Virus record (IMG/VR): IMGVR_UViG_3300025030_000070
Location: 1-64,000 of that record
Source of the DNA: a virus
Length of the DNA: 64,000 nucleotides
Reading direction: 5' to 3' (one strand)
The notes below the pieces were generated by a model. It was not told where the DNA came from, made no database searches, and worked only from the letters and a program-made list of their open reading frames with translations. The translations under genes and the position numbers were made by a program. Positions 4,453 to 55,537 of the stretch are shown here, piece after piece; within the stretch, counting starts at the first letter, position 1; each line of letters begins with the position of its first letter.

Positions 4453-4947
4453 TTGCCTATTAAATACTATTCTATGATAGAAAAATTCAAAATAAAGAGA
4501 AACGATAATCTTCCATTGATTGATGAATGTATACATCGAAGATTGTATAAAATTCGATGTAGAAATCTTAATTATGGTGTTTGGAACAACAAAGCAAAAG
4601 GATTTATTGGGATAAGGGAAAAATTTAAACAAGAATATCTTTTCACTGAATATCATTATGATGTCGATAAATCATATGGAACAGTGTTTGAAGCAATTGA
4701 TACTGGAATTGATGTTCCTGGCGAAATTGAATTACGAGAAAGATTTTCAACAGAAGATGAAATAACTGGACGATTGGTTTTATTTGATGAACCAATTGTT
4801 GACGGCGGAAGAGGATGGTATTTTGTAGATACCAATGAAGCTTCACAAGATATACACCCTGTCAGCAAAAGATATAAACCATTATTTGATTGGTTGACAG
4901 AGAAAGAAAAGGAATTAAATGTCAAATTGTTCAACAATAACAGGTGA
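4453..4947 (+). CDS. Hypothetical protein, 164 aa
   Basis: The TTG at 4453 has AAAAGGAG 11 bases upstream and gives the full frame. ATG 4474 is the alternative but lacks a ribosome binding site. The protein is mixed alpha/beta in character, with no motif recognised. Its 3' end overlaps rtcB by 29 bases, so the two are probably coupled. Confidence 0.6.
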   Translation: MPIKYYSMIEKFKIKRNDNLPLIDECIHRRLYKIRCRNLNYGVWNNKAKGFIGIREKFKQEYLFTEYHYDVDKSYGTVFEAIDTGIDVPGEIELRERFSTEDEITGRLVLFDEPIVDGGRGWYFVDTNEASQDIHPVSKRYKPLFDWLTEKEKELNVKLFNNNR

Positions 4948-6154
4948 AAAATCAAAAGTTCCGATCAAAATTTGGGATGGGAATGGTTCTGTACCAGTGG
5001 AAGATGGCGCAAAAGAACAACTTAAAATGATGTCAGAACTTCCATTTATTCATAAACACATTGCTGTAATGAGTGATTGCCATTGGGGAAATGGTGCCTG
5101 CGTAGGTTCTGTTATTCCAACTGTTGGAGCCATTATTCCTGCGGCTGTTGGTGTAGATTTGGGGTGTGGAATCACGGCAGTTCGTACATCATTACGAGCA
5201 TTAGATCTGCCAGATAATCTTAAGAATATTCGCTCTAGAGTCGAGAGCGAAATTCCACATGGACGCACAGCAGATGGAGGACGTGGGGATTGTGGAGCGT
5301 GGGGAAATCCACCTACTCGTGTACTTGCTATTTGGGGAAATGAACTTGGACCGAAATTTCAATCTATTGTTGAGAAGTATCCTCACATTGAGAAGTCAAA
5401 CAATATAGGACATCTTGGAACGCTCGGAACAGGAAATCATTTCATTGAGATTTGTCTTGACGAGAGTGATTATGTTTGGTTCATGCTTCATTCTGGTTCT
5501 CGTGGTGTTGGGGCAAGAATAGGTGATTTTTTTATCAACAAAGCAAAAGAAGAAATGGAGCGATGGTTTATTCATCTTCCAGACAAGAATCTTGCCTACC
5601 TGGCTGAAGGCTCTCAATACTTTGATGATTATGTTGAGGCAGTAGAGTGGGCTCAACATTTTGCTTCTTGGAATAGAAAAATAATGATGGAAAACGTTAT
5701 TAAATCAGTCCAAGAAGGATTAGGTGGGCATGAGTTTGAGTCAAAACTAGTGACAGTCGATTGTCATCATAACTATATTGCTAGAGAGAACCACTTTGGA
5801 CGCAATGTTTGGATAACCCGTAAAGGCGCTGTAAGAGCGCGCAAAGATGATTTAGGGATCATTCCAGGTTCAATGGGAGTGAAGTCTTTTATTGTGCGTG
5901 GACAGGGGAACAATGATTCATTTCACTCATGCTCTCATGGTGCCGGCCGCAAAATGTCACGAACTGCTGCTAAAGCAAAATTTACATTAGATGATCATAT
6001 CCAAGCAACGAAACATATAGAATGTCGTAAAGATAAAGAAGTTATTGATGAAACGCCTATGGCATACAAAGATATTGATGTTGTTATGACCGCTCAAAGT
6101 GATTTAGTAGAAATTGTACATAAATTGTCTCCTCTCCTTTGTGTTAAAGGATAA
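4919..6154 (+). CDS. rtcB: RNA-splicing ligase RtcB
   Basis: 411 aa, the usual length for RtcB. This GTP- and Mn2+-dependent enzyme joins RNA ends carrying 2',3'-cyclic phosphate or 3'-phosphate to 5'-OH ends. Visible family motifs are MSDCHWGNGACVGSV, GVDLGCGI with the metal Cys, LGTGNHFIE, DCHHNYIARE, GSMGVKSFIVRG, and SHGAGRKMSR carrying the His that is guanylylated. It lies 1.2 kb before a large tRNA array and 2.3 kb before a cREC-type gene. Repair of tRNAs cut by host anticodon nucleases is therefore the likely role (inference). The ATG overlaps the previous gene. Confidence 0.95.
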   Translation: MSNCSTITGEKSKVPIKIWDGNGSVPVEDGAKEQLKMMSELPFIHKHIAVMSDCHWGNGACVGSVIPTVGAIIPAAVGVDLGCGITAVRTSLRALDLPDNLKNIRSRVESEIPHGRTADGGRGDCGAWGNPPTRVLAIWGNELGPKFQSIVEKYPHIEKSNNIGHLGTLGTGNHFIEICLDESDYVWFMLHSGSRGVGARIGDFFINKAKEEMERWFIHLPDKNLAYLAEGSQYFDDYVEAVEWAQHFASWNRKIMMENVIKSVQEGLGGHEFESKLVTVDCHHNYIARENHFGRNVWITRKGAVRARKDDLGIIPGSMGVKSFIVRGQGNNDSFHSCSHGAGRKMSRTAAKAKFTLDDHIQATKHIECRKDKEVIDETPMAYKDIDVVMTAQSDLVEIVHKLSPLLCVKG

Positions 6155-11576: not shown

Positions 11577-11581
11577 TTTGT

Positions 11582-11655
11582 GGATAGGAAGCTGAAGTAG
11601 TCGAGGCATTCGTCTGCAAAACGAATTTTAGTGGGCGCAAGTCCCTCCCTATCCT
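11582..11655 (+). tRNA. tRNA-Cys(GCA)
   Basis: Acceptor GGATAGG/CCTATCC; anticodon stem TTCGT/ACGAA with loop CTGCAAA; discriminator T, the cysteine identity base. The T-loop CGCAAGT is unusual (C54, G55). Confidence 0.88.
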
Positions 11656-11673
11656 CTTAATGTGTGAATAAAT

Positions 11674-12014: not shown

Positions 12015-12032
12015 TGTCAAATCTATTTGACA
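12015..12032. terminator. 8-bp perfect inverted repeat before the tmRNA-like gene
   Basis: TGTCAAAT and ATTTGACA are separated by CT. Flanking bases add partial pairing. No clear T-run follows; it may insulate or process the next RNA. Confidence 0.3.
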
Positions 12033-12063
12033 AATGATGAATAGTTATTTATAGTAAAAATAT

Positions 12064-12141
12064 GGGGCGCTAATGGTTTCGACGAAAGATAATCCAACAA
12101 ATGGAGTTTTTCGGAAAGGGGTTCGACTCCCCTGCGCTCCA
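12064..12141 (+). ncRNA. Minimal tmRNA-like RNA (tRNA-like domain without tag region)
   Basis: The 5' end GGGGCGC pairs with GCGCTCC at the 3' end, leaving a G3-T70 wobble and A73: the alanine identity used by tRNA-Ala and tmRNA. The 5' segment GGTTTCGACG matches the tmRNA signature GGxTTCGACG, which replaces a normal D-arm. The T-arm is canonical (AGGGG/CCCCT, loop TTCGACT). Between them only a P2-like helix occurs (CGAAA/TTTCG capped by TCCA/TGGA), with no tag reading frame and no pseudoknots. The total is 78 nt, against roughly 350 for a full tmRNA. It lies in the phage tRNA array. Confidence 0.7.
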
Positions 12142-12160
12142 CTTAAAAAGGAAAAGAATT

Positions 12161-12703
12161 ATGGATGTGAACGCAAAAACGCTAGTGCTCGATACTTCAT
12201 ATCAACCACTAGGAATTATTAGCTGGCAACGTGCTTTTTGTCTTTATATGATGGATAAGGTTGAAATTGTAGAAGAATATGCTGACTTATGGGTTCGCTC
12301 AGCTCATCAAGCATTCAAAGTTCCTTCCATTATCAGATTTGTCAAAAACGTTTTCAAAAAAGTGAGAAGAGTAAAATTCTCAAGAGATAATGTTTATGCA
12401 AGAGATAAAGGAAAATGCCAATATTGTGGAACTCATTGTACGACAGAAGAGTTTACACTAGATCACATTGTTCCAAGGGCATTAGGTGGGATAACGGAAT
12501 GGAAAAATGTTGTCGTTTGTTGTGTAGATTGTAATAGACGAAAACAAGATAAACCTCTTCATAAATCTGGAATGACTTTGTTATCTATTCCAAGTAAACC
12601 AAAGAACATCTTCCAAACTATATTTTGGAATAAAGGTGCTCCAGATTCATGGAGAGACTATATGGCAACATGCTTATATTGGCATGGAGAATTATCCGAT
12701 TAA
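12161..12703 (+). CDS. HNH endonuclease
   Basis: 180 aa. ATG 12161 has AAGGAAAAG upstream; the longer frame would include the tmRNA-like gene. An N-terminal region (NAKTLVLDTSYQPLGIISWQ then RAFCLY) is typical of a widespread HNH family. CQYCG near residue 87, TLDHIVPRALGG and VVCCVDCNRRKQ form the zinc-supported HNH site. It may be a mobile nuclease or act in phage DNA handling. It sits between the tmRNA-like RNA and tRNA-Ala. Confidence 0.88.
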   Translation: MDVNAKTLVLDTSYQPLGIISWQRAFCLYMMDKVEIVEEYADLWVRSAHQAFKVPSIIRFVKNVFKKVRRVKFSRDNVYARDKGKCQYCGTHCTTEEFTLDHIVPRALGGITEWKNVVVCCVDCNRRKQDKPLHKSGMTLLSIPSKPKNIFQTIFWNKGAPDSWRDYMATCLYWHGELSD

Positions 12704-13177: not shown

Positions 13178-13438
13178 ATGAGCAGATCAATCCGTAAAAC
13201 AAAAATATTCGGAAACGTTGGATCTCTTTGTCACGCATCTGAAAAAAAAGATAAAAAATTATTTCATAAGATGTATCGTTCTCTTGAAAGAGAAATTGTT
13301 CGAAAAATTGAACAAGGAGCTGTAGATTCAGAAAACGTAGTCTTTTTTAATGAAGAAGAAACGATGGATGTTTGGTCGATGGATAAAGATGGTAAACATT
13401 ATTGGGAAGATGTTGAAGAGAAAGATATGAGGAAGTAA
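13178..13438 (+). CDS. Conserved-type phage protein, 86 aa
   Basis: The start MSRSIRKTKIFGNVG is a pattern seen at the beginning of many small phage proteins of unknown function. A basic helix and an acidic C-terminus follow. Its stop is directly followed by the next ATG. Confidence 0.6.
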   Translation: MSRSIRKTKIFGNVGSLCHASEKKDKKLFHKMYRSLEREIVRKIEQGAVDSENVVFFNEEETMDVWSMDKDGKHYWEDVEEKDMRK

Positions 13439-18938: not shown

Positions 18939-19280
18939 ATGTCCAAACCTAAAATAGAGCCTTTGAAATTGCCACAATTTCATTCCGTTTCCGCTACATC
19001 TAATAAAATTATAATTAAAGGGCTTAATGGGCAATTTCATGATGAAGCTTGGTTCAATCAAATTCAGAATATTGAAGAATTTCCTCCTGAAATATATAAT
19101 TCTGCACGTAGATGGAAAGACGTAAAAGCTCTAATGGAGCATATTAAAATTCAAAAAAAAGAAATAGAAAATTTCAAAAAAGAAAATTTGAGATTACAAA
19201 TGGAGATAGAAGTTCTCTTTAAAGAGAAATTGTTCGAAAAATTGAACAAGGAGGAAGTTCTCCGAAAGGATAGTAAATGA
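18939..19280 (+). CDS. Coiled-coil protein, 113 aa
   Basis: A Pro-rich N-terminus is followed by YNSARRWKDVKALMEHIKIQ and a long coiled coil. It is a longer paralogue of the gene at 18677. It shares ATGA with the exonuclease gene that follows. A TTGACT element at 18906 may serve as its promoter. Confidence 0.6.
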   Translation: MSKPKIEPLKLPQFHSVSATSNKIIIKGLNGQFHDEAWFNQIQNIEEFPPEIYNSARRWKDVKALMEHIKIQKKEIENFKKENLRLQMEIEVLFKEKLFEKLNKEEVLRKDSK

Positions 19281-20251: not shown

Positions 20252-21606
20252 GTGCCGTAAAACCCATTTATTGCTTTAGCGTGGATGGGATGTAAGGCAC
20301 AAATATAGTAAATTAACCTTGTGAAAGAATATTTGTACAAAAAATGTAGCGGTTATGCGAAAAAGATGTATTTTTGTAAAAAAATAGACTATTTACTAAT
20401 AGATGAAAACAATATTTCGGACATATAAATTCGAATTACAACCAACACAAGAGCAAAAGATGTTGTTGGAAAAGCACTTTGGGTGTACCCGATTTGTGTA
20501 TAATCATTTTCTAAATGAGCGAAAAGAGCAGTATCAAGCAGACAAAAAATCAGATAATTACTATGCACAGGCAGCAACACTAACTGAATTAAAGAAAAAA
20601 GAGGAAACTGTTTGGCTTAAAGAAGTTAACAGCCAATCATTACAATTTGCTTTAAGATGTTTGGATACTGCCTATGTAAACTTCTTTCGTGGTAATGCTA
20701 AGTTTCCACGATTTAAGTCAAGGAAAAAGAAAAATACATTTACTGTTCCTCAATTCGCAAAACTTGAAGCAGATAGGTTTTATGCCCCGAAGTTTAAAGA
20801 AGGAATTAAGGTTAATGTTCACCGAGAAGTAAAAGGTGAAATTGGGAAATGTACTTTAAGCAAAACGCCAACAGGAAAATACTTTGTATCAATTCTATCA
20901 GAAGAACAATATCAGCCAAAAGAAAAGACAGGTGCGGTTTGTGGAATAGACTTGGGATTAAAAGACTTTGCTATTACTTCTGATGGAATTAAATTTAAGA
21001 ATAACAAATACACAAAACAATATGAAAGAAAGTTAGCGGAAGCTCAAAAACATCTTTCTCGTAAAACAAAAGGAAGCTTTTCGTTTGAAAAACAAAGACG
21101 AAAAACAGCCTTAATCCACGAGAAGATAACCAACTCACGAATGGATAATTTACACAAAGTATCCCGTCAATTAGTATCAGATTATGATATAATTGCATTA
21201 GAAGATTTGAATGTAAAGGGAATGGTTAAAAACCACAAACTTGCAAAACACATATCAGATGCCAGTTGGGGAACGTTTGTAAGATTGCTTGAATACAAAG
21301 CAGATTGGAATGATAAACAAATCGTTAAAATCAATCGCTGGTATCCATCGTCAAAAACCTGCTGTGAGTGTGGCTATATAAATCAAGACTTAAATCTTTC
21401 TATAAGAAAATGGACTTGCAAGAATGGACACGTATTAGACCGTGATTTAAATGCTGCAAGGAACATACTTAAAGAAGGATTGAAAATATATGGGCATGGA
21501 CTGCCCATTACAAGGGTGGAGAGGAAATCAGACTTTGGCAACAAAGCACACTCTGTGAAACCCGAAGCCCATCCCATTGCCGTTGGCGTGTGTGGGTAGT
21601 TCACTT
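20252..21606 (+). mobile_element. IS200/IS605-type element with tnpB only
   Basis: The left end is a hairpin (GTGCC/GGCAC outside, CCCAT/ATGGG inside, 20252-20300). The right end is a CCCATCCCATTGCC ... GGCGTGTGTGGGTAG hairpin overlapping the end of tnpB, followed by TTCAC. Only tnpB lies between; no TnpA (Y1 transposase) is seen. A solitary related end occurs at 48626-48671. Exact borders are estimated. Confidence 0.8.
20403..21599 (+). CDS. tnpB: TnpB, RNA-guided nuclease of IS605-type elements
   Basis: 398 aa. TnpB proteins use an RNA from the element's right end to cut DNA. RuvC residues are visible: CGIDLGLKDFAI (Asp, about 181), IIALEDLNVKGM (Glu, about 265) and HVLDRDLNAARN (Asp, about 346). 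A zinc-finger region (KTCCECGYINQDLNL ... WTCKNGH) lies between. The N-terminus FRTYKFELQPTQEQK is typical. All catalytic residues are intact. The C-terminal codons form part of the right-end hairpin. Confidence 0.93.
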   Translation: MKTIFRTYKFELQPTQEQKMLLEKHFGCTRFVYNHFLNERKEQYQADKKSDNYYAQAATLTELKKKEETVWLKEVNSQSLQFALRCLDTAYVNFFRGNAKFPRFKSRKKKNTFTVPQFAKLEADRFYAPKFKEGIKVNVHREVKGEIGKCTLSKTPTGKYFVSILSEEQYQPKEKTGAVCGIDLGLKDFAITSDGIKFKNNKYTKQYERKLAEAQKHLSRKTKGSFSFEKQRRKTALIHEKITNSRMDNLHKVSRQLVSDYDIIALEDLNVKGMVKNHKLAKHISDASWGTFVRLLEYKADWNDKQIVKINRWYPSSKTCCECGYINQDLNLSIRKWTCKNGHVLDRDLNAARNILKEGLKIYGHGLPITRVERKSDFGNKAHSVKPEAHPIAVGVCG

Positions 21607-32353: not shown

Positions 32354-34948
32354 ATGAAAAAAACATACATTTTAGACACATCCGTATATCTTTCTGATTT
32401 TCGTTCAATATTTTCATATGGCTCAAACAACATTGTCATTCCTTTAATAGTTTTAGAAGAAATTGATAATCATAAAAAGCGCGTGGATAGCGTCGGCACA
32501 AATGCACGTGGAATCATTAGGATATTAGATTCATTAAGGGAGAAAGGATCTCTGCAAACTGGTGTTAGAGTAAAAAAGAATAGTGGCTTTGTATTAGCAA
32601 AAAATTTTGATTTTGGTGTTTTACCAATTGGTTTTGATTCATCTATTCCGGACCACCAAATTATTGCTACTGCCATAACAGAACAAAAAAATAATCCAAA
32701 TACTAAAGTTGTCGTTGTCTCATGCGACATAAATATGAGAGTTAAATGCGACTCTATAGGTATAAAAGCAGAAGACTATACTCCAAATCGCGCAATAAAA
32801 GAAAAATCACAAATCTACACTGGCTTCTCAACTTTTTTAGTTGATGATCAATTGATTGACAGATTTTATTCTGGTGAAAACATTTATATTTCTAAACAAG
32901 ATGCTATTAAACAAAAAAATCGATTTCACTGTAATCAATTTATAATGTTAGTGTCAAGCGCAAATGAGAAGAAAACAGCAATTGCGCGCTATATGGATGA
33001 AAATACTCCTCTTCGTAAAGTAAAAGAGAGTGAAAATCTTTGGGGCATTTCTCCAAAAAACAAAGAACAAAGTTTTGCCATAGATATTTTATTGGATCCT
33101 AACATTCCAGTTGTAAGTTTAATTGGAAAAGCAGGAAGTGGAAAGAGTTTATTGGCTGTAGCTGCTGGTTTACAACAATTAATGTCATCACCACTAAAAA
33201 ATGGAAATGGAAAAAACGGAGATAAAGAAAAAGAACACAAATATAGTAGATTGATTATATCAAGGCCTGTACAGCCGATGGGTCGAGATATAGGGTTTTT
33301 GCCTGGCCCACAACCTTTAGATGCTAAGATATTAACTCCCAATGGATGGACTACCATGGGTGATATTGAAATTGGAAATTATATTATTGCTAAAAATGGA
33401 AAACCTTCGAAAGTTATTGGTACGTTTCCAAAAGGAAAAAAATCAGTTTTTGAAATTATAACTACTGATAATAGAAAAACAGAATGTTGTGATGATCATT
33501 TGTGGTATACCCAGACATCCGAGGAAAGAAAAAGAAATAAAAAAGGAAAAATACGCAGTACTAATGAAATTAGAACAACATTAAAAATAGGAGACAAAAT
33601 TAATCATTCAATACCAAGAAACGAACCTATACAATTTAATAAACAATTATTACCAATTCCTCCTTATGTATTAGGCGCAATATTGGGTGATGGATCAATA
33701 TCAAATAGTATTGGTATATCTAATATAGATAACGAACTTATTGATAGAGTAAGAAAAGAATTGGAAATGATGGATTGTATTTTAGGTGATCCTGGCAAAT
33801 CAATTTTTTATAATATAAAAAGAAAATATCAAACAAATAATAAACCATCTAGAAAAATAAAAATAACTAATTCTATAACAAAAGAAGAAATAGAATTTTC
33901 TTCAATAGGAAAAGCATTAGAAAAATTAGATATTAATCGTTCTACTTTGCAAAGTAGATGTGATAAAAAACTTATTATTGATAATTTTAAATATGAATTT
34001 CTAGATTGTGAAAACAAATGGAGCAATCCAATAAAAGAAGAATTATTTAAATTAGGTTTAGAAGGCAGAAAATGTAATGATAAATTTATTCCTAATATTT
34101 ATAAATTTTCTTCTATAGAAGATAGAATTGCAATACTGCAAGGATTAATGGACACAGATGGCACAATAAAAGAAAAAGGAGAAGCCGGTTTTATAACAAC
34201 TAGCAAACAATTGGCATTAGATGTTATTGAATTAGTTTATTCATTAGGAGGTAAATCAATTTTAAGAAAAAGAGAAATTCGTAAAGAAAATGACAATACA
34301 AAAATAAATAATAGAATTGTTAAATCTAATTTTTGTACATATGAATTTACAATAAGTCTTCCAGAAACAATTAATCCATTTTTTATTTCTAGAAAATCAA
34401 ATAGACATAAAGCAAAATATTTACATTTTAGTAAAATAAAAGAAATTAATTATATTGGAGAAAAAGAAGTTAAATGCATTCTAATTGATGATCCTGAGCA
34501 TTTATATATAACTGATGATTATATTGTTACACATAATACTGTAGCTGAAAAGATGTTACCATGGCTTTCTCCAATTCAAGACAATCTAAGGTTTTTGTTT
34601 TCCAATGATCATTTAATGTTATCTCAATATATGGAGAAGGGAATAATTGAAATTGAAGCTCTAACATACATTAGAGGTAGATCTATTCAAAATGCTTATA
34701 TAATAATTGACGAATGCCAGTCATTGACTAAGCATGAAATGAAAACCATCCTAACAAGAGTTGGAAATGACAGTAAAATAGTTTTGACTGGAGATGTAGA
34801 ACAGATCGATAACGTACATGTCGATGATACTTCTAATGGACTAACTCATGTAGTAGAAAAATTCAAAGAATTTGATTTTGCTGGACATGTAACGTTAACA
34901 AAAGGCGAGCGTAGTCGCGTAGCTACCATAGCATCGCAGGTATTGTAA
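32354..34948 (+). CDS. phoH: PhoH family ATPase with N-terminal PIN domain, interrupted by an intein
   Basis: 864 aa precursor. The N-terminal PIN domain (TYILDTSVYLSDF, IVIPLIVLEEID, IPDHQIIATA) is a ribonuclease-type fold. The PhoH ATPase follows: VVSLIGKAGSGKSLLAVAAG (Walker A, about 258), RPVQPMGRDIGFLPG, then, after the intein, TVAEKMLPWLSPI, IRGRSIQNAYIIIDECQSLT (Walker B) and KIVLTGDVEQID. After removal of the 410-residue intein the protein is about 454 aa, the normal length. PIN-PhoH proteins are thought to act on RNA. Confidence 0.92.
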   Translation: MKKTYILDTSVYLSDFRSIFSYGSNNIVIPLIVLEEIDNHKKRVDSVGTNARGIIRILDSLREKGSLQTGVRVKKNSGFVLAKNFDFGVLPIGFDSSIPDHQIIATAITEQKNNPNTKVVVVSCDINMRVKCDSIGIKAEDYTPNRAIKEKSQIYTGFSTFLVDDQLIDRFYSGENIYISKQDAIKQKNRFHCNQFIMLVSSANEKKTAIARYMDENTPLRKVKESENLWGISPKNKEQSFAIDILLDPNIPVVSLIGKAGSGKSLLAVAAGLQQLMSSPLKNGNGKNGDKEKEHKYSRLIISRPVQPMGRDIGFLPGPQPLDAKILTPNGWTTMGDIEIGNYIIAKNGKPSKVIGTFPKGKKSVFEIITTDNRKTECCDDHLWYTQTSEERKRNKKGKIRSTNEIRTTLKIGDKINHSIPRNEPIQFNKQLLPIPPYVLGAILGDGSISNSIGISNIDNELIDRVRKELEMMDCILGDPGKSIFYNIKRKYQTNNKPSRKIKITNSITKEEIEFSSIGKALEKLDINRSTLQSRCDKKLIIDNFKYEFLDCENKWSNPIKEELFKLGLEGRKCNDKFIPNIYKFSSIEDRIAILQGLMDTDGTIKEKGEAGFITTSKQLALDVIELVYSLGGKSILRKREIRKENDNTKINNRIVKSNFCTYEFTISLPETINPFFISRKSNRHKAKYLHFSKIKEINYIGEKEVKCILIDDPEHLYITDDYIVTHNTVAEKMLPWLSPIQDNLRFLFSNDHLMLSQYMEKGIIEIEALTYIRGRSIQNAYIIIDECQSLTKHEMKTILTRVGNDSKIVLTGDVEQIDNVHVDDTSNGLTHVVEKFKEFDFAGHVTLTKGERSRVATIASQVL
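33308..34537 (+). mobile_element. Probable class 3 intein in PhoH, with LAGLIDADG endonuclease
   Basis: The extein sequence is interrupted between FLPG and TVAEK. The insert begins PQPLDAKILTPNGW (no Cys or Ser at position 1) and ends IVTHN before Thr. DHLW in block B, KCILID in block F and the +1 Thr form the W-C-T set known for class 3 inteins. YVLGAILGDGSIS and ILQGLMDTDGTIK are the two LAGLIDADG motifs; a NUMOD1-like segment lies between. Confidence 0.75.
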
Positions 34949-44437: not shown

Positions 44438-45382
44438 ATGAGATATCTTATATCCGGAGCAGCGGGATATATTGGTTCTAATCTAGTTGGCAAAATTTTA
44501 GAACAGGACTATCCATTCGGTGAAGTTACAGCACTAGACTCACTTCTTTACGATAAAACTTCTCTTCTTCAGTACGCAAATGATGATAGATTCAATTTTG
44601 TTAAAGGTGATGTACGAGATAAAGAGTTGCTTGGTTTTTTATTAAAAAATCATGATGTTATTATTTCTCTCGCTGCTTTAGTCGGCGCTCCATTATGTGA
44701 TAAACGTCCACAAGAAGCGTGGGACATTCATCACGGAGCTAATGAATTCCTTGCCAATAACAAATCAAAAGATCAATTACTTTTGGTTCCAAATTCGAAT
44801 TCTGGTTATGGAACTACTGATGGGACTTCAACGATAACAGAAAAAGATCCACTTAATCCGATATCTGTTTATGGAAAATCAAAATGCGCTGGCGAAGAAG
44901 CAATTCGGCAAGTCGAGAACCATTGTTCGATGAGACTTGCTACAGTGTTTGGTCCATCGTCAAGGATGCGAACTGATTTGCTTGTGAACAATCTTGTGTT
45001 AAAGGCAATGAGAGAAAAAGTTCTTATTGTATATGAAGGCTCATACATGCGTAATTATATACATATTGATGATGCGTGTAATGCTTTTATATTCGCCATA
45101 AATAATTGGGATAAGTGTAAAAATGAAGTATTTAACGTTGGAAATGATAAACTCAATATGAGTAAACTTCAGCTTTGTCAAAAAATTTCTGAACATATTC
45201 CATTGGAAATTATTGAAGCACAAATAACAAAGGATCCTGATTGTCGGAATTATATTATTAGTAGTCAAAAATTCTATGATAAAGGATTTAGTTGCCGTAC
45301 TGATCTAGATGAAGGCATTATACAACTCAAAACTGTGTACGAAATGTTAAATGATGATTTTATAATCTATGCCAACTATTGA
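44438..45382 (+). CDS. NAD-dependent epimerase/dehydratase (SDR)
   Basis: 314 aa. LISGAAGYIGSNLVGKI is the GxxGxxG nucleotide site; VYGKSKCAGEEA is the YxxxK catalytic pair; YIHIDDAC is typical of nucleotide-sugar SDRs. It probably modifies a sugar nucleotide for the nearby glycosyltransferases. The end overlaps the flavoprotein gene. Confidence 0.85.
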   Translation: MRYLISGAAGYIGSNLVGKILEQDYPFGEVTALDSLLYDKTSLLQYANDDRFNFVKGDVRDKELLGFLLKNHDVIISLAALVGAPLCDKRPQEAWDIHHGANEFLANNKSKDQLLLVPNSNSGYGTTDGTSTITEKDPLNPISVYGKSKCAGEEAIRQVENHCSMRLATVFGPSSRMRTDLLVNNLVLKAMREKVLIVYEGSYMRNYIHIDDACNAFIFAINNWDKCKNEVFNVGNDKLNMSKLQLCQKISEHIPLEIIEAQITKDPDCRNYIISSQKFYDKGFSCRTDLDEGIIQLKTVYEMLNDDFIIYANY

Positions 45383-46448
45383 TGCCGAAATTATTGTTAT
45401 TGGTGCTGGAGTAATTGGTCTTGCTATAGCTGAACGCTTATCTCGTTCTGGGAAACAAGTAATCATTGTTGAAAAAGAAAACAGTTTTGGTCAACATACT
45501 TCAAGTAGAAATAGTGAAGTAATTCATTCTGGTATTTATTACCAAGCAAATAGTCTAAAATCAAAATTGTGTATTGAAGGCAATAAAATGCTTTATGATT
45601 TTGCTCATGAGCACAATATTCATCATAAGAAATGCGGAAAATTTATCATATGCCAAAAAGGAGAGGAAGGTTATTTAATTGATATCCTTTCCAACGGAAA
45701 GAGAAATGGCATTGAAGGGTTAACAATAGCGAAAGATAATATTCCTGATACTATAAAGTATAATACCGCTGTATGGGTGCCGTCTACTGGCATAATCGAC
45801 TCTCATGCTTTAATGTATGAATTGAATAGACAGATAGGACAGAGAAACAACGTATATGTTGGATTCGGATGTAATGTTCGGAGCATTCAATACGATCGCT
45901 ATGAAGGTGGCACTTTTCGAGTTGGAATAGATGATTTTCATTTAACATCTAAAATTCTAATTAATTGTGCTGGGCTCTGGGCAGATAAAATAGCAAATTT
46001 GCTTTTTCCAAACCAATATAGATTGGAATTCTGGAAAGGCGATTATTATAAAACAAATAAAATTAAAAATCTTAATCATTTAATTTATCCATTGCCTCGT
46101 TTTGATAGTTTGGGAATACATACTCGAATTAATTTAGATGGTTCTGTTTCTTTTGGACCAAACGCTTATAGAGTATACGATGTTGATTACAATATTGATG
46201 AAAGATTTAAAGAAAGTTTTCTTTCATCTATCAATGAATATATTGAATTAGGCGATGAAGATATATTTCCTGATTATAGTGGAATTCGTCCAAGACTTTC
46301 TGGTAATGAGGGCAATAAAAAAGATTTTATAATCAAGAATGAAATTGACAATGGTTTCCGCAATATGATAAACTTGATTGGAATAGAATCACCTGGGCTT
46401 ACTTGCTGTTTATCGATAGCAAAATACGTTGAAGGAATAATAGTATAA
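45369..46448 (+). CDS. FAD-dependent oxidoreductase, LhgO-like
   Basis: 359 aa. IIVIGAGVIGLAIAERLSRS is the FAD dinucleotide site, VIIVEKE the ribose-binding acid, SRNSEVIHSGIYY and NLIGIESPGLTCCLSIAKYV match L-2-hydroxyglutarate oxidase and related DAO-family enzymes. It is unusual in a phage and may oxidise a sugar or hydroxy-acid in this cluster. Substrate unknown. Confidence 0.82.
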   Translation: MPTIDAEIIVIGAGVIGLAIAERLSRSGKQVIIVEKENSFGQHTSSRNSEVIHSGIYYQANSLKSKLCIEGNKMLYDFAHEHNIHHKKCGKFIICQKGEEGYLIDILSNGKRNGIEGLTIAKDNIPDTIKYNTAVWVPSTGIIDSHALMYELNRQIGQRNNVYVGFGCNVRSIQYDRYEGGTFRVGIDDFHLTSKILINCAGLWADKIANLLFPNQYRLEFWKGDYYKTNKIKNLNHLIYPLPRFDSLGIHTRINLDGSVSFGPNAYRVYDVDYNIDERFKESFLSSINEYIELGDEDIFPDYSGIRPRLSGNEGNKKDFIIKNEIDNGFRNMINLIGIESPGLTCCLSIAKYVEGIIV

Positions 46449-46483
46449 AATGGTTTCTGTAAAATATAAAAATAGGAGAGAAA

Positions 46484-47215
46484 ATGAAATTTATTTTTAG
46501 TTTTTTGTTTGTAGTGCTTTTGTCGTCTTGTAATTTTGAAGCGGATTATAATAATTCTATTTCCGGACTTCATTCTTGGAATGGATATCATTGGGCAAGA
46601 ACGTCAAATCCTTTCACTTTGAATTTACGAGATAATGTATCAACTACGTGGGATCCATATTTAAATGAAGCCTCATACGATTGGAGTTTGTCTTCCGTAT
46701 TGGATACAACTGTAATGCTATTTAATGGAAGATCTTGTAGGATTTCTGCTGGTTCTATTTTGATTTGTAATTCAAAGTATGGAAAAACAGGATGGCTTGG
46801 AATTGCCCAAATTTGGATTAGCGGTGAACATATTACGCAAGGCATTGTAAAAATGAATGACACTTATTTTAATATGCAGCAGTACAATACACCTGAACTT
46901 AGAAGACTTGTTATGTGTCAAGAGATAGGACATACGCTAGGATTAAGTCATCAAGATGAGGATTTTTATAATATTCCTTTAGGAAGCTGTATGGATTATT
47001 CAAGCAATCCAGTTTTGAATCAACATCCAAATTTTCATGATTATGAAGAATTGGAATTGATTTATGAACACCTAGACACAACTACGACTGTTATTTCATC
47101 TACTTTAGATGGCAACAATTGGGGAAATATCGTTTCTTCCGGTGAAAAATCTAGGATTCATATTTTGTGTGAAGATAGGGAGTGTTTGATAACTCACGTA
47201 TTTGAGGTAGAATAA
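46484..47215 (+). CDS. Matrixin-like zinc peptidase, predicted lipoprotein
   Basis: 243 aa. AGGAGAG precedes the ATG. The signal KFIFSFLFVVLLSSC ends in an LSSC lipobox. MCQEIGHTLGLSHQDEDF near residue 143 matches the long zincin motif HExxHxxGxxH, except that the first His is Gln. SCMDYSSNP supplies the Met-turn. Export is predicted. Whether the Gln form binds zinc is uncertain. Confidence 0.75.
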   Translation: MKFIFSFLFVVLLSSCNFEADYNNSISGLHSWNGYHWARTSNPFTLNLRDNVSTTWDPYLNEASYDWSLSSVLDTTVMLFNGRSCRISAGSILICNSKYGKTGWLGIAQIWISGEHITQGIVKMNDTYFNMQQYNTPELRRLVMCQEIGHTLGLSHQDEDFYNIPLGSCMDYSSNPVLNQHPNFHDYEELELIYEHLDTTTTVISSTLDGNNWGNIVSSGEKSRIHILCEDRECLITHVFEVE

Positions 47216-47261
47216 TTTGAGCTATAGTGAAAAAATAATAGGTGGAGAAGAAAGAAGAAAA

Positions 47262-47615
47262 ATGGATAATTCTGAAGAAAAACAACCATTGCAAATAACA
47301 GAAGCGGCAAAGGTAGAGTTTGTAAAATATCTTGAAGAAAAAGAAGAGAGAGGACAATATATTCGTGTTGGAGTGATAGCAGGAGGTTGTTCGGGATATC
47401 GTTATCTTCTTGAAGATGGAACGTTAGAAGAAGGCGACCATGTTATTCCGATAGATGAAAGCAGAAAAGCTGTTTTAGTAGACCCAAAAAGTTTTATATT
47501 TCTTCAAAATGTTGTGTTAGATTATAGAGAAGGATTAATGGGATCAGGGTTTAAGTTTATCAACCAAAGCGCATCTCGTTGTTGTGGATGCGGCGAAAGT
47601 TTCTCATGTGGTTAG
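47262..47615 (+). CDS. A-type iron-sulfur carrier (IscA/ErpA/HesB family)
   Basis: 117 aa from ATG 47262 (GGAG upstream). ITEAAKVEFVKYLEEK, VIAGGCSGYRY and RCCGCGESF hold the three conserved Cys. Such proteins deliver Fe-S clusters. It lies 1.1 kb before the radical-SAM gene and could help mature that enzyme (inference). Confidence 0.9.
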   Translation: MDNSEEKQPLQITEAAKVEFVKYLEEKEERGQYIRVGVIAGGCSGYRYLLEDGTLEEGDHVIPIDESRKAVLVDPKSFIFLQNVVLDYREGLMGSGFKFINQSASRCCGCGESFSCG

Positions 47616-47635
47616 ATATTTTTGGAAGGAATGAA

Positions 47636-47743
47636 ATGAGTAAAAAAGCACTTATCATTTTAATATTAGATTTGGACTATAGAGCGAAGTATTATGAACA
47701 AGAAACAAAAAGTTGGCTTGACAGAATGATGGAAGGCGAGTAG
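47636..47743 (+). pseudogene. 35-residue fragment duplicated from the gene at 52272
   Basis: After a short start, LILDLDYRAKYYEQETKSWL is almost the same as the C-terminus of the 66-aa protein at 52272-52472. The DNA match spans 63 bases (47659-47721 against 52397-52459) with few differences. GGAATG before the ATG may allow expression. Confidence 0.6.
47659..47721 (+). repeat. 63-base direct repeat, copy 1
   Basis: Nearly identical to 52397-52459, 4.7 kb away. It covers the LDLDYRAKYYEQETKSW coding stretch in both places. Confidence 0.85.
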
Positions 47744-47753
47744 GGTCTTAGGT

Positions 47754-47966
47754 ATGCACGAAATTATTGATATTGGTTGGGATATGGATGTTCCGTTTTC
47801 TATTGATAAAGCTGCTGATTATTGGTTTAATGTTTATTGTCAATGTATAGAGTGTGGCGATTTTGTTCATCTCGAACAGGCAAGAATCAAGCTTGAACAG
47901 ATATCAAAACTTCTTGGATATGACACTTTAGATATTTTTTTAAAAAAAGAATATGGAAATCATTAA
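47754..47966 (+). CDS. Hypothetical protein, 70 aa
   Basis: A helical protein with CQCIECGDF in the middle. It overlaps the next gene by 14 bases. The function is not recognised. Confidence 0.55.
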   Translation: MHEIIDIGWDMDVPFSIDKAADYWFNVYCQCIECGDFVHLEQARIKLEQISKLLGYDTLDIFLKKEYGNH

Positions 47967-48552
47967 TTACATTAATCAAAATATTCCAATATGGTGTATT
48001 TTGAAGGGAGATCATGCATGTCAGGATGTTGAGAAATTTCTTTCTGCGTCTATTATTAAATCTCCCAATTTTATTGATAATAAAGAAAACGAATTGCGAA
48101 AAATCTTTTTAAAAGAGACTAAAAATCGTAAATGGTTATTTGATTTTATTGAAAATAAATCATTCGCGCTAGTAAAATTGGAAAAAAAAGACATTGTAAA
48201 TGTATTATCAGTGTGGAATAACGTACCACTGTATAGACTTGCTAAAGAATACAAACGAGCATTTCTTAACAATAAGAAGGTCAAAATCAAAGGAGTGGTG
48301 AAAGATAAAGGTTCAGTGCGTGAAGTAAATCGTAGAATGAAAACATTACCAAGCGTTTCTTTAGACACGAATTGGATGATTGATTTTAATCCTAGTATAG
48401 ATTATCATCGATGTATTTGGATGAAACGTAAAGATGGACAATATCAAATAGTTGATGGAACACACAGAACTGTTGCAACAATATGGAAATATTTTTTAAA
48501 AAATAAAAAAACGAAAATGCCACCGTGGTATGCAATAATGTTCGAAGAATAA
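47953..48552 (+). CDS. ParB-like-fold hypothetical protein, 199 aa
   Basis: The C-terminal YQIVDGTHRTVATIWKYFL resembles the GxHRxxA segment of ParB/sulfiredoxin-like domains. The N-terminal part is helical. The position within the sugar cluster gives no clear hint. Confidence 0.5.
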   Translation: MEIINYINQNIPIWCILKGDHACQDVEKFLSASIIKSPNFIDNKENELRKIFLKETKNRKWLFDFIENKSFALVKLEKKDIVNVLSVWNNVPLYRLAKEYKRAFLNNKKVKIKGVVKDKGSVREVNRRMKTLPSVSLDTNWMIDFNPSIDYHRCIWMKRKDGQYQIVDGTHRTVATIWKYFLKNKKTKMPPWYAIMFEE

Positions 48553-48625
48553 AAAATTTCTCTAAATAAAATTATTGATATTGGACGTTTTATGCAGCAA
48601 GAGTTTTTAGAATTCTTTATAGGAT

Positions 48626-48671
48626 GTGCCGTAAAACCCATTCATCGCTTTGGCGTGGGTGGGTAGTTCAC
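48626..48671. mobile_element. Solitary IS605-type end (palindromic mini-element)
   Basis: It starts GTGCCGTAAAACCCATT as the left end at 20252 does and ends GGCGTGGGTGGGTAGTTCAC like the right end near 21580-21602. The two ends are thus fused with no gene between. It lies in a 200-base gap without an ORF. Confidence 0.7.
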
Positions 48672-48763
48672 TAAAGAATGTATGTCTGAAACAGAAGACA
48701 GAGCACTACTAGAAATACAGTTTCTAGAATAGTAAGAAATATAACATGGAAGGAAAATCAAAG

Positions 48764-50284
48764 ATGAGTAAAAATTTAGACATACTTTTTGTGCACAGTA
48801 ATAGTTTGGAAATCAATTATCAAGAACTTGCTAATGAACATAGCGCAATAGAGCCTAATATTTGGGCTGGTATGTTAGCAAACAGTTGCAAAAGTAAAGG
48901 TTTTTCTTCACAAATATTAGATTGCGAAGCAGAACATTTAACAACTAACAATTCTGCAAAAGAAATTGTTTCTAGAAATTCCCGTTTAATTTGCTTTGTT
49001 GTTTTTGGTGCCAATCCTAATGCTTCTACTCAATCAATGGAAGGAAATATTGCAACTGCAAAAAAAGTCAAAGAGCTTAATCCTAATTCAAAAATTATTT
49101 TTGTAGGTCCACATGTTTCAGCCGTTCCTAGGGAAACTCTTAATGAAGGTTGCGTTGATATTGTGTGCACGAATGAAGGTGTTTATGCTCTTCATAATTT
49201 ATTGAAATGCAATGTTGACGATAATCACGATCTTCTAAAAATAAAAGGTATTGGTTTTAAAACAAAAGAAGGATTATCAATAATAAACGAACCAGAAAGA
49301 ATTGTTCCAAAAGATTTTCTCGCGAGAGATTTGCCAGGAATTGCTTGGGATTTAATGCCAAATATTAAATATTTTAAAACCTCAGGCTGGCACAGTTGGT
49401 CAAATAACACAATAAAAACTCCATTTGCATCTCTTTATACTTCTCTTGGTTGCCCATATAAATGTAGCTATTGTATGATAAATATTCTGAATAGGACTGA
49501 CAATGCACTTCATATTTCAGCCGCTGATAGCAATATTTTTCGCTATTGGGATCCAGAGTTCATTATTAAACAGTTTGATATTATCGCGCAAATGGGCGTA
49601 AAGAATGTTAAAATAGCAGATGAACTTTTTGTCTATAATCCAAAGCACTTTCTGAAAATATGTGATTTGATAATAGAGCGAAAATATGACTTCAATATTT
49701 GGTGTTATTCTAGGGTTGATACTTGCAAGCCTGAATATCTTGATAGAATGAAAAAAGCAGGAATAAACTGGTTAGGAATAGGCGTTGAGAATCCAAATCA
49801 AGTTCTCCGTAAAGAAGTTCATAAGGGAGGATTCAAAGAAGTAAAAATAGATAACTTATTTAGTATGATGAGAAATGCCGGAATAAATATAGGAGCAAAC
49901 TACATTTTTGGACTTCCAAAAGACACAAAAGAAAGTATCCAAAATACTGTTGAGTTTATGATGAATAATCTAACAGAGTTTATGAATATCTATTCGGCAA
50001 TGGCACTTCCTGGAAGTCCATTATATTTAGAAGCAAGAAAAAATAAAGTTATATTGCCTGATCGGTATGCTGGTTATTCACAACATTCATATTACACTCA
50101 AAATCTTCCAACTGATACATTATCAGCAGCAGAAATTCTGCAAGCCCGTGATGATTGTTGGACTAGATATTTTACAAATTCTGTTTACCTTCAAATGATG
50201 GAAAAGAAGTTTGGGAAAGTTTGCACCGACAACATTAAAGCATCAACACAGATAAAACTAAAAAGGCGTTTGCTTGGAGATTAA
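48764..50284 (+). CDS. B12-binding radical SAM enzyme, 506 aa
   Basis: ATG 48764 has AAGGA at suitable spacing. The N-terminal part (LILFVHSN-type start, IIFVGPHVSAVPRETLNEG) fits a cobalamin-binding domain. SLGCPYKCSYCMINI near residue 233 is the CxxxCxxC cluster motif, and WLGIGVENPNQVLRK is the SAM-binding strand. Such enzymes perform methylations or carbon-skeleton steps; in this cluster a role in sugar modification is likely. Confidence 0.87.
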   Translation: MSKNLDILFVHSNSLEINYQELANEHSAIEPNIWAGMLANSCKSKGFSSQILDCEAEHLTTNNSAKEIVSRNSRLICFVVFGANPNASTQSMEGNIATAKKVKELNPNSKIIFVGPHVSAVPRETLNEGCVDIVCTNEGVYALHNLLKCNVDDNHDLLKIKGIGFKTKEGLSIINEPERIVPKDFLARDLPGIAWDLMPNIKYFKTSGWHSWSNNTIKTPFASLYTSLGCPYKCSYCMINILNRTDNALHISAADSNIFRYWDPEFIIKQFDIIAQMGVKNVKIADELFVYNPKHFLKICDLIIERKYDFNIWCYSRVDTCKPEYLDRMKKAGINWLGIGVENPNQVLRKEVHKGGFKEVKIDNLFSMMRNAGINIGANYIFGLPKDTKESIQNTVEFMMNNLTEFMNIYSAMALPGSPLYLEARKNKVILPDRYAGYSQHSYYTQNLPTDTLSAAEILQARDDCWTRYFTNSVYLQMMEKKFGKVCTDNIKASTQIKLKRRLLGD

Positions 50285-50938
50285 ATGAAAAACTTAATGA
50301 CAGCCGAACAGTTAATTGCTTTTGAAGAAGACATAGCTCAATGTTTCAATAACAAAATGATTAGAGCGCCCATACATCTTCAGTCAAATAATTTTGAGAT
50401 ATTGATAAAGATGTTTGAAGAAATAAACGAAGAAGATTGGGTTTGTGGAACTTGGCGTTTTCATGCAGAAACGCTATTGAAAGGTGTTCCACCTGAAAAA
50501 GCAAAACAAGATATTCTTGACGGACGGTCAATCGAGTTGTGTAATAAAGAGCATAAAGTTTTTACATCTGCCATAGTAGCAGGCATTTTTCCTATTGCGC
50601 TAGGAATAGCGTTAGATATAAAAAGAAGGGGTGATAATAATAAAGTTTATTGTTTCGCAGGAGAAATGTCTGCTACTTGTGGTGGGTTTTATGAAGCATA
50701 TACTTATGCGAAAAATCATTTTTTGCCTATTGTATTTGTGATAAGCGACAATGGTAAAAGTGTTTGCACTGACACCAGGGAGGTATGGAATACTCACAAA
50801 CTTCCATTCGAACCAGATGAAATAAATCAAGGAATGATAGAAGAAAATGAGTTTTACAAGAGCAAATATTTGTGGTATTATAAATATCGCTTGGATTATC
50901 CTCACGCCGGCCCGGGCGGAAAAAGGATACAATTTTAG
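50285..50938 (+). CDS. TPP-dependent E1 alpha-like subunit, 217 aa
   Basis: Begins one base after the previous stop. GTWRFHAETLLKGVPPEKAK, CNKEHKVFTSAIVAGIFPIA and VYCFAGEMSATCGGFYEAY with FVISDN correspond to the alpha part of 2-oxoacid dehydrogenase E1 enzymes; the GDG of the TPP site reads GEM here. It is shorter than cellular E1 alpha. The beta-like subunit follows at 51743, separated by an HNH gene. Confidence 0.72.
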   Translation: MKNLMTAEQLIAFEEDIAQCFNNKMIRAPIHLQSNNFEILIKMFEEINEEDWVCGTWRFHAETLLKGVPPEKAKQDILDGRSIELCNKEHKVFTSAIVAGIFPIALGIALDIKRRGDNNKVYCFAGEMSATCGGFYEAYTYAKNHFLPIVFVISDNGKSVCTDTREVWNTHKLPFEPDEINQGMIEENEFYKSKYLWYYKYRLDYPHAGPGGKRIQF

Positions 50939-50940
50939 TT

Positions 50941-51750
50941 ATGAAGAAATGTAGTAAATGTGGTCTTGAAAAAGAGTTGAGTGAGTTTAGTAATAATAAA
51001 AACAATAAAGACAATAAGCATGCATGGTGTAAAAATTGTAATAAACGATATAAAAAACAATTCTTTATAAATAACAAAGAAACTATTTTGGAAAAATATA
51101 AACAATATTATTTATATAATAAAGAAAATATTTTAGAACAGAAAAAACAATATTATTTATATAATAAAGAAAATATTTTGGAAAAATATAAACAATATTA
51201 TTTATATAATAAAGAAAATATTTTAGAACAGAAAAAACAATATTATTTATATAATAAAGAAAATATTTTGGAAAAATGTAAACAATATCGAAAAAATAAT
51301 ATAGAAAAAATATTGAAACGAGATAGGAAACGAGATAGACAATATCGCCAATCTCCAAAAGCAAAAGAACTAAGAAAGAAAAAGTTCAAACAACGCATCA
51401 AAAATGATCCATGCTTTAGATGTCATCGTGTTATTTCTTCCTCGATTCGCAAAACCCTCAAATCTCAAGGTGGCATCAAAAATGCTCCCATTTTTTCTAA
51501 ACTACCTTATACGCCAGAAGAGTTAGTAAAACACATAGAAAGTTTATGGGAACCGTGGATGAACTGGGACAACCATGGTAGACTTTCTTTCACTAAACAA
51601 ACTTGGCAAATAGATCACATAATACCTCAAAGCAAGTTGCCTTATGATTCAATGGAACATGAAAACTTTTTGAAATGTTGGACACTTGAAAACCTCCGAC
51701 CATTAGAATCAATAGAAAACATAAGAAAGGGAGATAAAATAGATGGGTAA
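50941..51750 (+). CDS. HNH endonuclease with 15-residue repeats
   Basis: 269 aa. KKCSKCGLEKELSEFSNN and HAWCKNCNKRYKK form an N-terminal zinc region. Then come four 15-residue repeats of the type KQYYLYNKENILExx. The C-terminal part (KQTWQIDHIIPQSKLPYDSM, LENLRPLESIEN) is the HNH site. It sits exactly between the two E1 subunit genes and overlaps the second by 8 bases, which points to insertion as a free-standing mobile gene. Confidence 0.85.
   Translation: MKKCSKCGLEKELSEFSNNKNNKDNKHAWCKNCNKRYKKQFFINNKETILEKYKQYYLYNKENILEQKKQYYLYNKENILEKYKQYYLYNKENILEQKKQYYLYNKENILEKCKQYRKNNIEKILKRDRKRDRQYRQSPKAKELRKKKFKQRIKNDPCFRCHRVISSSIRKTLKSQGGIKNAPIFSKLPYTPEELVKHIESLWEPWMNWDNHGRLSFTKQTWQIDHIIPQSKLPYDSMEHENFLKCWTLENLRPLESIENIRKGDKIDG
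51103..51282 (+). repeat. Four tandem 45-bp repeats inside the HNH gene
   Basis: Units begin at 51103, 51148, 51193 and 51238 with the same CAATATTATTTATATAATAA start; alternate units end differently, so the higher-order period is 90 bp. They encode a helical spacer. Confidence 0.85.
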
Positions 51751-52282
51751 GTACTTTGAAGAAATGAAAAAAACAATGACTTGGCTCGGTGAGCAGCAAG
51801 ACACTTTCTTTCTAGGACAATCAGTAGGAAAAGAAGGAACAGCAATGTTTGCGACATTGAAAGATGTTCCATTGTCTAAACGACTTGAAATGCCTGTTAT
51901 TGAGAACACGCAACTTGGAATGTCAATTGGGATGGCAATCAACGGAACTATACCAATTTCCATTTTTCCTCGATGGAATTTTTTGATTTGTGCTTCCGAT
52001 CAACTGGTCAACCATCTGGATAAAATCAAACAATATTCGCATGATGAATTTATTCCAAAAGTCATAATCCGAGTTGGTGTGGGTTCCGAACGTCCGCTTC
52101 ATCCACAAGCGCAACATGTTGGCAATTTTTCATCAGCATTTAGAGAAATGCTTACCAATATAGAAATTATAGAATTAAATGAACCAAAAGATATTTTTCC
52201 TGCCTACAAACATGCTTATGAAAGAACAGATGGAAAATCAACAATTTTAGTTGAATTTGGGGACTATTATAATGAAAAATAA
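51743..52282 (+). CDS. TPP-dependent E1 beta-like subunit, 179 aa
   Basis: LEMPVIENTQLGMSIGMAIN, GTIPISIFPRWNFLICASDQ and LVNHLDKIKQYS follow the beta subunit of 2-oxoacid dehydrogenase E1 enzymes, including the catalytic Glu region. The C-terminal domain is short. With the alpha-like gene it could transfer a two- or three-carbon unit to a sugar (inference). Confidence 0.72.
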   Translation: MGKYFEEMKKTMTWLGEQQDTFFLGQSVGKEGTAMFATLKDVPLSKRLEMPVIENTQLGMSIGMAINGTIPISIFPRWNFLICASDQLVNHLDKIKQYSHDEFIPKVIIRVGVGSERPLHPQAQHVGNFSSAFREMLTNIEIIELNEPKDIFPAYKHAYERTDGKSTILVEFGDYYNEK

Positions 52283-52472
52283 AGAAATACAAAGAATAGA
52301 AGACTATTTGCATTCATTCTTGGATGATGAACAGTTTGAATTTATCAAAGAAGACCCATTGGGGCATTTGATTAAATCCCACTCTCGTCAAAGATGTTTA
52401 ATATTAGATTTGGACTATAGAGCGAAGTATTATGAACAAGAAACTAAAAGTTGGTTTGATAAAATAAAATAA
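52272..52472 (+). CDS. Hypothetical protein, 66 aa
   Basis: ATG 52272 overlaps the E1 beta end. The C-terminal LDLDYRAKYYEQETKSWF is duplicated at 47636-47743. The function is unknown. Confidence 0.6.
   Translation: MKNKEIQRIEDYLHSFLDDEQFEFIKEDPLGHLIKSHSRQRCLILDLDYRAKYYEQETKSWFDKIK
52397..52459 (+). repeat. 63-base direct repeat, copy 2
   Basis: Partner of 47659-47721. It lies in the 3' half of the intact gene, so it is probably the source copy. Confidence 0.85.
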
Positions 52473-52505
52473 AAGATGACAGGATTAAAAATATAGGATA
52501 AAGCG

Positions 52506-53465
52506 ATGAATAAACCAAAGCTGCTTTTTTGTACTGAGAAATGGGTTGACGGACGCCCAGATATGGGTTTAACAAATAATTACCATAATTTATTTGGCTC
52601 TCTCAAACATTCAATGCCTGAGATTATATTTGACATTATACATTTAGATGAGGCTGTTGTTTCTCATAAAACACATATGGATGTTATTCTTCCAAAAGTG
52701 TGTTCTTCAATAAAGCCAGATATATGTATTTTTTCTTTGTTGGGAAAGTCTTCTGCCAACCCCAATCCTCCAACGTTTGAAATTATTAAAAATATGGGAA
52801 TTAAAAATGTTGTAATGTGGCCAGACGTTGGCATTGATTGGGGATATCCACAAATTCTTGGTTTGGGATCTTTGGTAGATTTACATATTGGTTGGGATCG
52901 CGCTGACAGTGATTTCCACAGAACTAGGCAATTACCATCTAACTTTCAACAAATGTGGGTGCCTCAAGACGATAAATTATATTTCAAACAAGAAGGTCAG
53001 GATATTCCTATTAGTTTTATCGGAAGTCCTCGCTACCAAGATAGACAAATTTTCCTTAAACATGCCGTTCAATCGAATGCTCCAATTCTTATTAGAGGAG
53101 GACAAAGAGAAGAAAAACTTTCTCCAGAACAATACGCATCTTATATTCGTAGGAGCAAAATAGGGGTTAATTTTTCATGGTCTCCTGGTTCATTTCATCA
53201 ATGTAAGGGACGGGTGTATGAAATCTTAGCATCTCATTCAATGCTTTTGGAAAGTGCGAATAATGCTACAAAAGAATTATTTGTGCCCGGTATTGAATAT
53301 GTTGAATTTACCGATCCAAATGATTTTGTTCAGAAAATTCATTATTACTTAAACAATGAAGCAGAGAGAGTTAAAATAGCGGAAAATGGTTATAAAGTAT
53401 ATAATGAAAAATATAATTCAAAAATATTCTGGACAACAGTTTTAGAGAAAGTAATGAATGATTGA
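52506..53465 (+). CDS. CgeB-like glycosyltransferase, 319 aa
   Basis: The chain ends with the layout of CgeB/GT4-like C-terminal domains: ISFIGSPRYQDRQIFLKHA, SWSPGSFHQCKGRVYEILAS and LFVPGIEYVEFTDPNDFVQK. The N-terminal half is Rossmann-like. It overlaps the next gene by 8 bases. Confidence 0.75.
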   Translation: MNKPKLLFCTEKWVDGRPDMGLTNNYHNLFGSLKHSMPEIIFDIIHLDEAVVSHKTHMDVILPKVCSSIKPDICIFSLLGKSSANPNPPTFEIIKNMGIKNVVMWPDVGIDWGYPQILGLGSLVDLHIGWDRADSDFHRTRQLPSNFQQMWVPQDDKLYFKQEGQDIPISFIGSPRYQDRQIFLKHAVQSNAPILIRGGQREEKLSPEQYASYIRRSKIGVNFSWSPGSFHQCKGRVYEILASHSMLLESANNATKELFVPGIEYVEFTDPNDFVQKIHYYLNNEAERVKIAENGYKVYNEKYNSKIFWTTVLEKVMND

Positions 53466-55431: not shown

Positions 55432-55537
55432 AGGTGTTGTCGGCGCTGCTTGCAAGTTCGGATTCGGGTTAATTGGGAAAGAAGTAAAAGAAAATCTGGA
55501 TAAAAAACTTGGTCTGGGTTCTCTAGAAGATCTCTAG
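55406..55537 (+). pseudogene. Truncated copy of a sugar-nucleotide dehydrogenase N-terminus
   Basis: 43 codons: KLGIIGSEGVVGAACKFGF is almost the same as the start of the 56696 gene (RLGIVGSEGVVGSACKFGF). After it come an unrelated short tail and a stop. It is a broken duplicate, 1.3 kb from the full gene. Confidence 0.7.

Follow-up and report, generated by a model that had tools for sequence, protein, structure and literature searches.

The closest described counterpart of the gene reported here is the tmRNA of mycobacteriophage DS6A (tmID 11587), entered as “TLD only” by Hudson et al. (2014; PMC4131195): it too is phage-encoded, contains little beyond the tRNA-like domain (TLD) and has no tag coding sequence, although the present phage is unrelated to DS6A and the two RNAs were compared by description only. 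The passage of Hudson et al. that deals with such molecules, citing Mao et al. (2009), describes a DS6A-like RNA, chargeable or not, as a strong inhibitor of tmRNA, perhaps through SmpB titration, and the corresponding passage of the 2025 tmRNA database paper (PMC11915505) has the DS6A-type form inhibiting endogenous tmRNA in E. coli. That database holds 97,179 tmRNAs, 79 of them from phages, with nine classified as “standard, no CDS”; the phage case that it names is DS6A. Crystal structures show SmpB bound to isolated fragments of the TLD, where it completes the tRNA shape (reviewed in PMC3985003). In E. coli, lambda-immP22 is not supported by a tmRNA whose resume codon is a stop or that lacks alanylation (PMC2862035).

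Organelles also possess tmRNAs without a tag frame. The CDS-less mitochondrial tmRNAs of jakobids and oomycetes (RF02544) are likewise TLDs for which SmpB, with which they co-occur (PMC11915505), is encoded elsewhere, but they usually derive from permuted organelle genes, whereas the phage gene is in one piece and in standard order. The CDS-less plastid tmRNAs of Mallomonadaceae (about 65 bp, PMC11915505) are of comparable size; they comprise two sequences, both from plastids, whereas the RNAs of the large phage family possess a longer P2 with an inner hairpin. Full-length phage tmRNAs (Bxz1, Wildcat, Phabba, Stenotrophomonas phages) share the TLD signature, the position of P2 and the T-arm, but contain pseudoknots and a tag frame in addition, and ARAGORN, which misses the short forms, calls those on which it was tried. 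An earlier, sequence-only reading of the present locus had assumed that known phage tmRNAs are full length, which the published descriptions of DS6A (PMC4131195, PMC11915505) contradict. The TLD-only kind is already known, the gene at 12064-12141 is new, and the novelty appears to lie in scale: our literature search, outside which most subscription journals lay, yielded no description of a TLD-only family this large.

Anatomy of the 78-nt gene

The window, that is, the whole 64,000-nt stretch of viral DNA analysed, contains at 12064-12141 a tmRNA TLD with nothing else. Its parts and immediate neighbours are as follows.

12027..12055, + strand: promoter-like site TTGACA-17-TATAGT (11/12 consensus matches)
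12064..12141, + strand: TLD-only tmRNA gene, 78 nt (RF00023 54.5 bits; model R1 50.8 bits; fold z -3.25)
12064..12070, + strand: 5′ acceptor strand GGGGCGC, pairing with 12134-12140, with a G3-T70 wobble (sequence, fold)
12071..12074, + strand: linker TAAT (sequence)
12075..12083, + strand: tmRNA D-loop signature GGTTTCGAC, replacing the D-arm (sequence, RF00023 alignment)
12084..12090, + strand: 5′ strand of P2, GAAAGAT (fold; P2 covariation across the TLD-only family)
12091..12105, + strand: short closing hairpin CCA-ACAAA-TGG with A/T flanks, replacing the entire messenger and pseudoknot domain (sequence, fold)
12106..12112, + strand: 3′ strand of P2, GTTTTTC (fold)
12113..12116, + strand: junction GGAA, which is GGAC in most relatives (comparison with relatives)
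12117..12133, + strand: T-arm AGGGG TTCGACT CCCCT (RF00023 alignment, fold)
12134..12140, + strand: 3′ acceptor strand GCGCTCC (RF00023 alignment, fold)
12141, + strand: discriminator A73; CCA is not encoded, CTT coming next (sequence)
12161..12703, + strand: HNH endonuclease gene directly downstream (PF14279 55.5 bits, phrog_16726)

Written out in full, the plus strand of 12064-12141 is GGGGCGC TAAT GGTTTCGAC GAAAGAT AATCCAACAAATGGA GTTTTTC GGAA AGGGG TTCGACT CCCCT GCGCTCC A. The elements by which a tmRNA TLD is recognized are all present, namely a tRNA-Ala-like acceptor (G3-U70, A73), a GGNTTCGAC D-loop, a T-arm and P2; G3-U70 is the identity element of alanyl-tRNA synthetase. When the whole window was searched with the Rfam tmRNA model RF00023, positions 12064-12144 scored 54.5 bits (E 1.2e-18), above the gathering cut-off of 47 bits; the alignment takes in both ends of the model (1 and 374), and some 306 positions between them are condensed to 13 nt. 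The MFE and centroid folds agree on an acceptor of 7 bp, a P2 of 7 bp closed by the small inner hairpin, and a T-stem of 5 bp, and the folding energy of -30.7 kcal/mol was matched in none of 200 shuffles. The 29 nt from the D-loop signature to GGAA are all accounted for by P2 and the small hairpin, leaving no mRNA-like domain (resume codon, tag frame, stop), and pseudoknots PK1-PK4 are likewise absent by the RF00023 alignment. The two TLD halves are adjacent and in standard order, which distinguishes the gene from permuted or two-piece tmRNAs, and none of the permuted tmRNA families in Rfam scored above cut-off anywhere in the 64-kb window; as a one-piece phage gene in standard order with a TLD and no CDS, it is of the DS6A type. 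A model, R1, built from 18 relatives to the exclusion of the window copy, recognized 12064-12141 as its sole match across the 87.8-kb record.

The RF00023 match, the fold and the sequence thus bear out the coordinates and anatomy given in the sequence-only reading, and its view of the gene as a tmRNA without messenger domain and pseudoknots is upheld by RF00023, the fold and the absence of an RF00005 match. It had held that a tRNA model returning a standard isotype would speak against it; RF00005, which recovers 22 tRNAs above cut-off elsewhere in the record, gave no match at 12064-12141 at E<=10. Of the scorings that it had proposed, that with the Rfam tmRNA model supports it, and ARAGORN calls neither a tRNA nor a tmRNA at 12064-12141.

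The -10 element of the promoter-like site stops 8 nt short of G1, so that transcription from it would begin at or beside the mature 5′ end. The two strands of the 64 kb contain three sites of 11/12 quality (expectation 1.5), and with so few of them we estimate the chance of one being placed within a few bases of the right spot at about 1e-4 or less. As CCA is not encoded, it would be added by the host. No terminator was found between the 78-nt RNA and the start of the HNH gene at 12161, and a co-transcript of the two is possible; a functional link between them was considered and rejected, since HNH relatives in other phages have no adjoining tmRNA.

The phage and its gene content

The gene sits in an array of about 28 tRNAs (ARAGORN). 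Within the same part of the window, 11580-11656 is a tRNA-Cys-like sequence with GCA in an anticodon-like loop, on which ARAGORN and Rfam are silent and for which a plain fold of 11588-11658 is unremarkable. An RtcB RNA ligase gene (4919-6154) lies upstream of the array and fits cleaved-tRNA repair, and a 42-bp repeat, 97.6% identical and in the same orientation, occurs 6 kb apart at 13278-13319 and 19212-19253. Elsewhere, we noted a TnpB/IS605 OrfB-type transposase gene (20403-21599; OrfB_IS605 and Cas12f1-like TNB domains), a PhoH-like gene (32354-34948; PIN and PhoH domains) in which a LAGLIDADG-bearing insert, most likely an intein, splits two PhoH halves, and a large sugar-modification region (44438-63007) with at least five phrog_540 nucleotide-sugar epimerase genes and glycosyltransferase genes just upstream.

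The terminase (TerL) of this virus, as found in a 201-kb sister record, is closest to those of Flavobacterium phage immuto and Microcystis phage Mel-JY01, at about 41-42%. The only close relative of the window copy is in that sister record (L091), which is 100% identical over 11.8 kb and so cannot serve as an independent check on how this gene has evolved; beyond this identical record, no syntenic relatives were found via the neighbouring proteins.

Short tmRNAs in other phages

The pattern GGTTTCGACN{24,54}GGTTCGANTCC, with the acceptor left free, retrieved at least 120 stretches from IMG/VR, nearly all of them short tmRNAs; acceptor-extended patterns retrieved 107 and 75 stretches, and a GGATTCGAC variant 16. 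Only 15 stretches matched a similar pattern in 257 Gb of bacterial and archaeal sequence (84,980 genomes), and several of these are chance matches or other RNAs. The short form that the sequence-only reading had suggested seeking in related phages is thereby found at no fewer than 227 loci, with at least 157 distinct sequences in which the acceptor is fully paired, nearly all on viral contigs; among the matches listed, 143 of the 157 are 75-82 nt long. These counts rest on exact motifs and miss diverged members such as that of Streptomyces phage Riptide, in which TTCGAC is lost. Further phage-collection searches using other family members gave no matches.

Streptomyces phages LuckySocke, GiJojo, pSt2308, Alone3 and BRock carry the short form, and none annotates the RNA as such; in LuckySocke it is located inside the phage's own tRNA array. 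In the DNA fetched around the 157 loci, a tRNA lies within 1 kb at 32 or more (a lower bound, many contigs being short), and the gene is therefore not confined to tRNA arrays. No SmpB gene was found in any of 48 whole records carrying the short form, while the control search was positive in 10/10 bacterial genomes, and none of the 48 contains a second tmRNA above cut-off.

Several variants and false matches were encountered. The diverged Riptide RNA (L165, 1472-1548) keeps G3-T70, P2 and the T-arm, has GGTTAGAT in place of GGTTTCGAC, and is undetected by Rfam and ARAGORN. In four loci (L064, L103, L113, L142) the RNA is 65-69 nt long, the inner hairpin being gone and P2 closed directly by a small loop. 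ARAGORN calls full tmRNAs with an odd tag at L059 5905-6228 and L151 5493-5835, the former overlapping a complete short form (5908-5987) and probably being a false full-length call. Chance or tRNA matches (L016, L042, L050, L094, L112, L116, L123 and others) were dropped from the family. BLAST matches in Gordonia phage Asapag and mycobacteriophage Bobi cover the T-arm and acceptor only, lie near integrase genes and are probable attP cores, and those in Pseudomonas and Stenotrophomonas phages are full-length or permuted tmRNAs.

We excluded the search motifs as evidence of conservation. Among the matches listed, the T-stem is paired at 5/5 positions in all 157 distinct sequences, and G3-T70 and A73 are present in all 84 distinct sequences from an acceptor-unconstrained scan whose acceptor pairs at 7/7 positions. 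P2, counted over 76 sequences with similarities below 88%, is paired in 464 of 532 cells, as compared with 230 +/- 11 with shuffled partners. Of the cells in an alignment of 18 sequences, 95% are paired and 104 are changed on both sides, a covariation equalled by 0/500 shuffles, with slid registers also far lower. Since a MAFFT alignment of 67 sequences misregistered the acceptor, so that RNAalifold recovered the T-stem only, the structure-anchored count and a gap-free subset were used instead. A -10-like TANNNT lies 5-9 nt upstream of G1 in 39 of 153 sequences, versus 11 in shuffles (maximum 22 in 500 shuffles), with a sharp peak 6 nt before G1. Taken together, the covariation, the invariance of G3-T70 and A73 and the excess of TANNNT indicate that the short tmRNAs are probably selected as structured, alanine-type TLDs, and in a good share of phages are probably transcribed separately.

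Possible modes of action

We consider it probable that the 78-nt RNA can be charged with alanine and competes with host tmRNA for SmpB and stalled ribosomes. It would be transcribed from its own promoter-like site and receive CCA from the host, and, judging from G3-U70 and A73, would be charged with alanine by AlaRS; it could then bind host SmpB and EF-Tu instead of the full tmRNA, thus competing with it. At a stalled ribosome it may take the nascent chain, supplying no resume codon, tag or stop. Trans-translation would thereby be dampened, with truncated phage proteins left untagged and SmpB and stalled ribosomes diverted. Charging, SmpB binding, tmRNA inhibition and benefit to the phage are all inferred here, and host tmRNA-SmpB is assumed as the target. 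Given that E. coli tmRNA fails in the lambda-immP22 test when its resume codon is a stop or it is not alanylated (PMC2862035), a bare TLD would be expected to compete with the host molecule and not to carry rescue through to the end. A decoy or regulator of ribosome rescue had been one of two suggestions of the sequence-only reading, and it fits the DS6A precedent.

The best surviving alternative, although we regard it as improbable, is a minimal rescue RNA, whereby alanyl-TLD and SmpB would free stalled ribosomes untagged, as proposed for the CDS-less mitochondrial tmRNAs, and peptidyl-TLD would drop off or be hydrolysed by other factors. It would account for the invariance of G3-U70 and A73, which pure titration does not need, and SmpB does co-occur with the mitochondrial RNAs (PMC11915505); the lambda-immP22 result, however, predicts that rescue would not be completed by an RNA that lacks a resume codon, and the relevant passage of PMC4131195 has a similar TLD inhibiting tmRNA.

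The other suggestion of the sequence-only reading was that the tRNA array has retained the gene as a remnant, a non-functional leftover of a full-length tmRNA acquired together with the array. The gene does lie in such an array, and the window copy departs from the family consensus (GGAA rather than GGAC, TAAT linker) and has one of the lower R1 scores. Every stem is nevertheless intact and the fold unusually stable (z -3.25), and we disfavour a remnant, which seems unlikely, because at least 157 relatives, narrow in length, keep paired and strongly covarying stems, the DNA fetched around most of them shows no tRNA at a distance of 1 kb or less, and the copy here has its own promoter-like site. 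Slightly more doubtful still is a charged decoy acting outside ribosome rescue, by regulating or sequestering AlaRS, EF-Tu or alanine: the invariant alanine identity and the absence of cis-encoded SmpB agree with it, but the tmRNA D-loop signature and P2 are also kept, and neither is needed for binding AlaRS or EF-Tu alone, the pairing of P2 being independent evidence of conservation and the signature, as part of the search pattern, not. An ordinary tRNA with an odd anticodon arm is suggested by the neighbouring tRNA genes, but can hardly be reconciled with a sequence that the tRNA model RF00005 does not match at E<=10 and ARAGORN does not call, that has no D-arm, and whose stem-loop has a 5-nt loop without U33.

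For the competitor of host tmRNA, the invariant alanine identity is a direct puzzle as to its mode of action, as inhibition is, in the passage cited above, alanylation-independent; SmpB titration alone thus fails to explain the conservation. The invariance of G3-U70 suggests that the charged form matters, either to a competitor that engages the ribosome or to rescue without tagging. We tentatively propose, as a possibility short of an even chance, that TLD-only tmRNAs are widespread phage-specific charged anti-trans-translation RNAs in which alanylation is kept for entry into stalled ribosomes with EF-Tu and SmpB, where they may accept the nascent chain and trap it or leave it untagged, beyond soaking up SmpB.

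The family has largely escaped annotation, as ARAGORN is blind to the short form and copies in LuckySocke, pSt2308, Alone3 and BRock are unannotated, and its scale may be judged from the nine “standard, no CDS” entries in the current tmRNA database (PMC11915505) versus at least 157 distinct sequences from pattern scans. More than 150 distinct viral relatives suggest a common, almost unannotated phage means of interfering with host rescue of stalled ribosomes. Should a tmRNA without a message prove to be routine in phages, interference with ribosome rescue, by blocking or by redirection, would be a common strategy overlooked by annotation.
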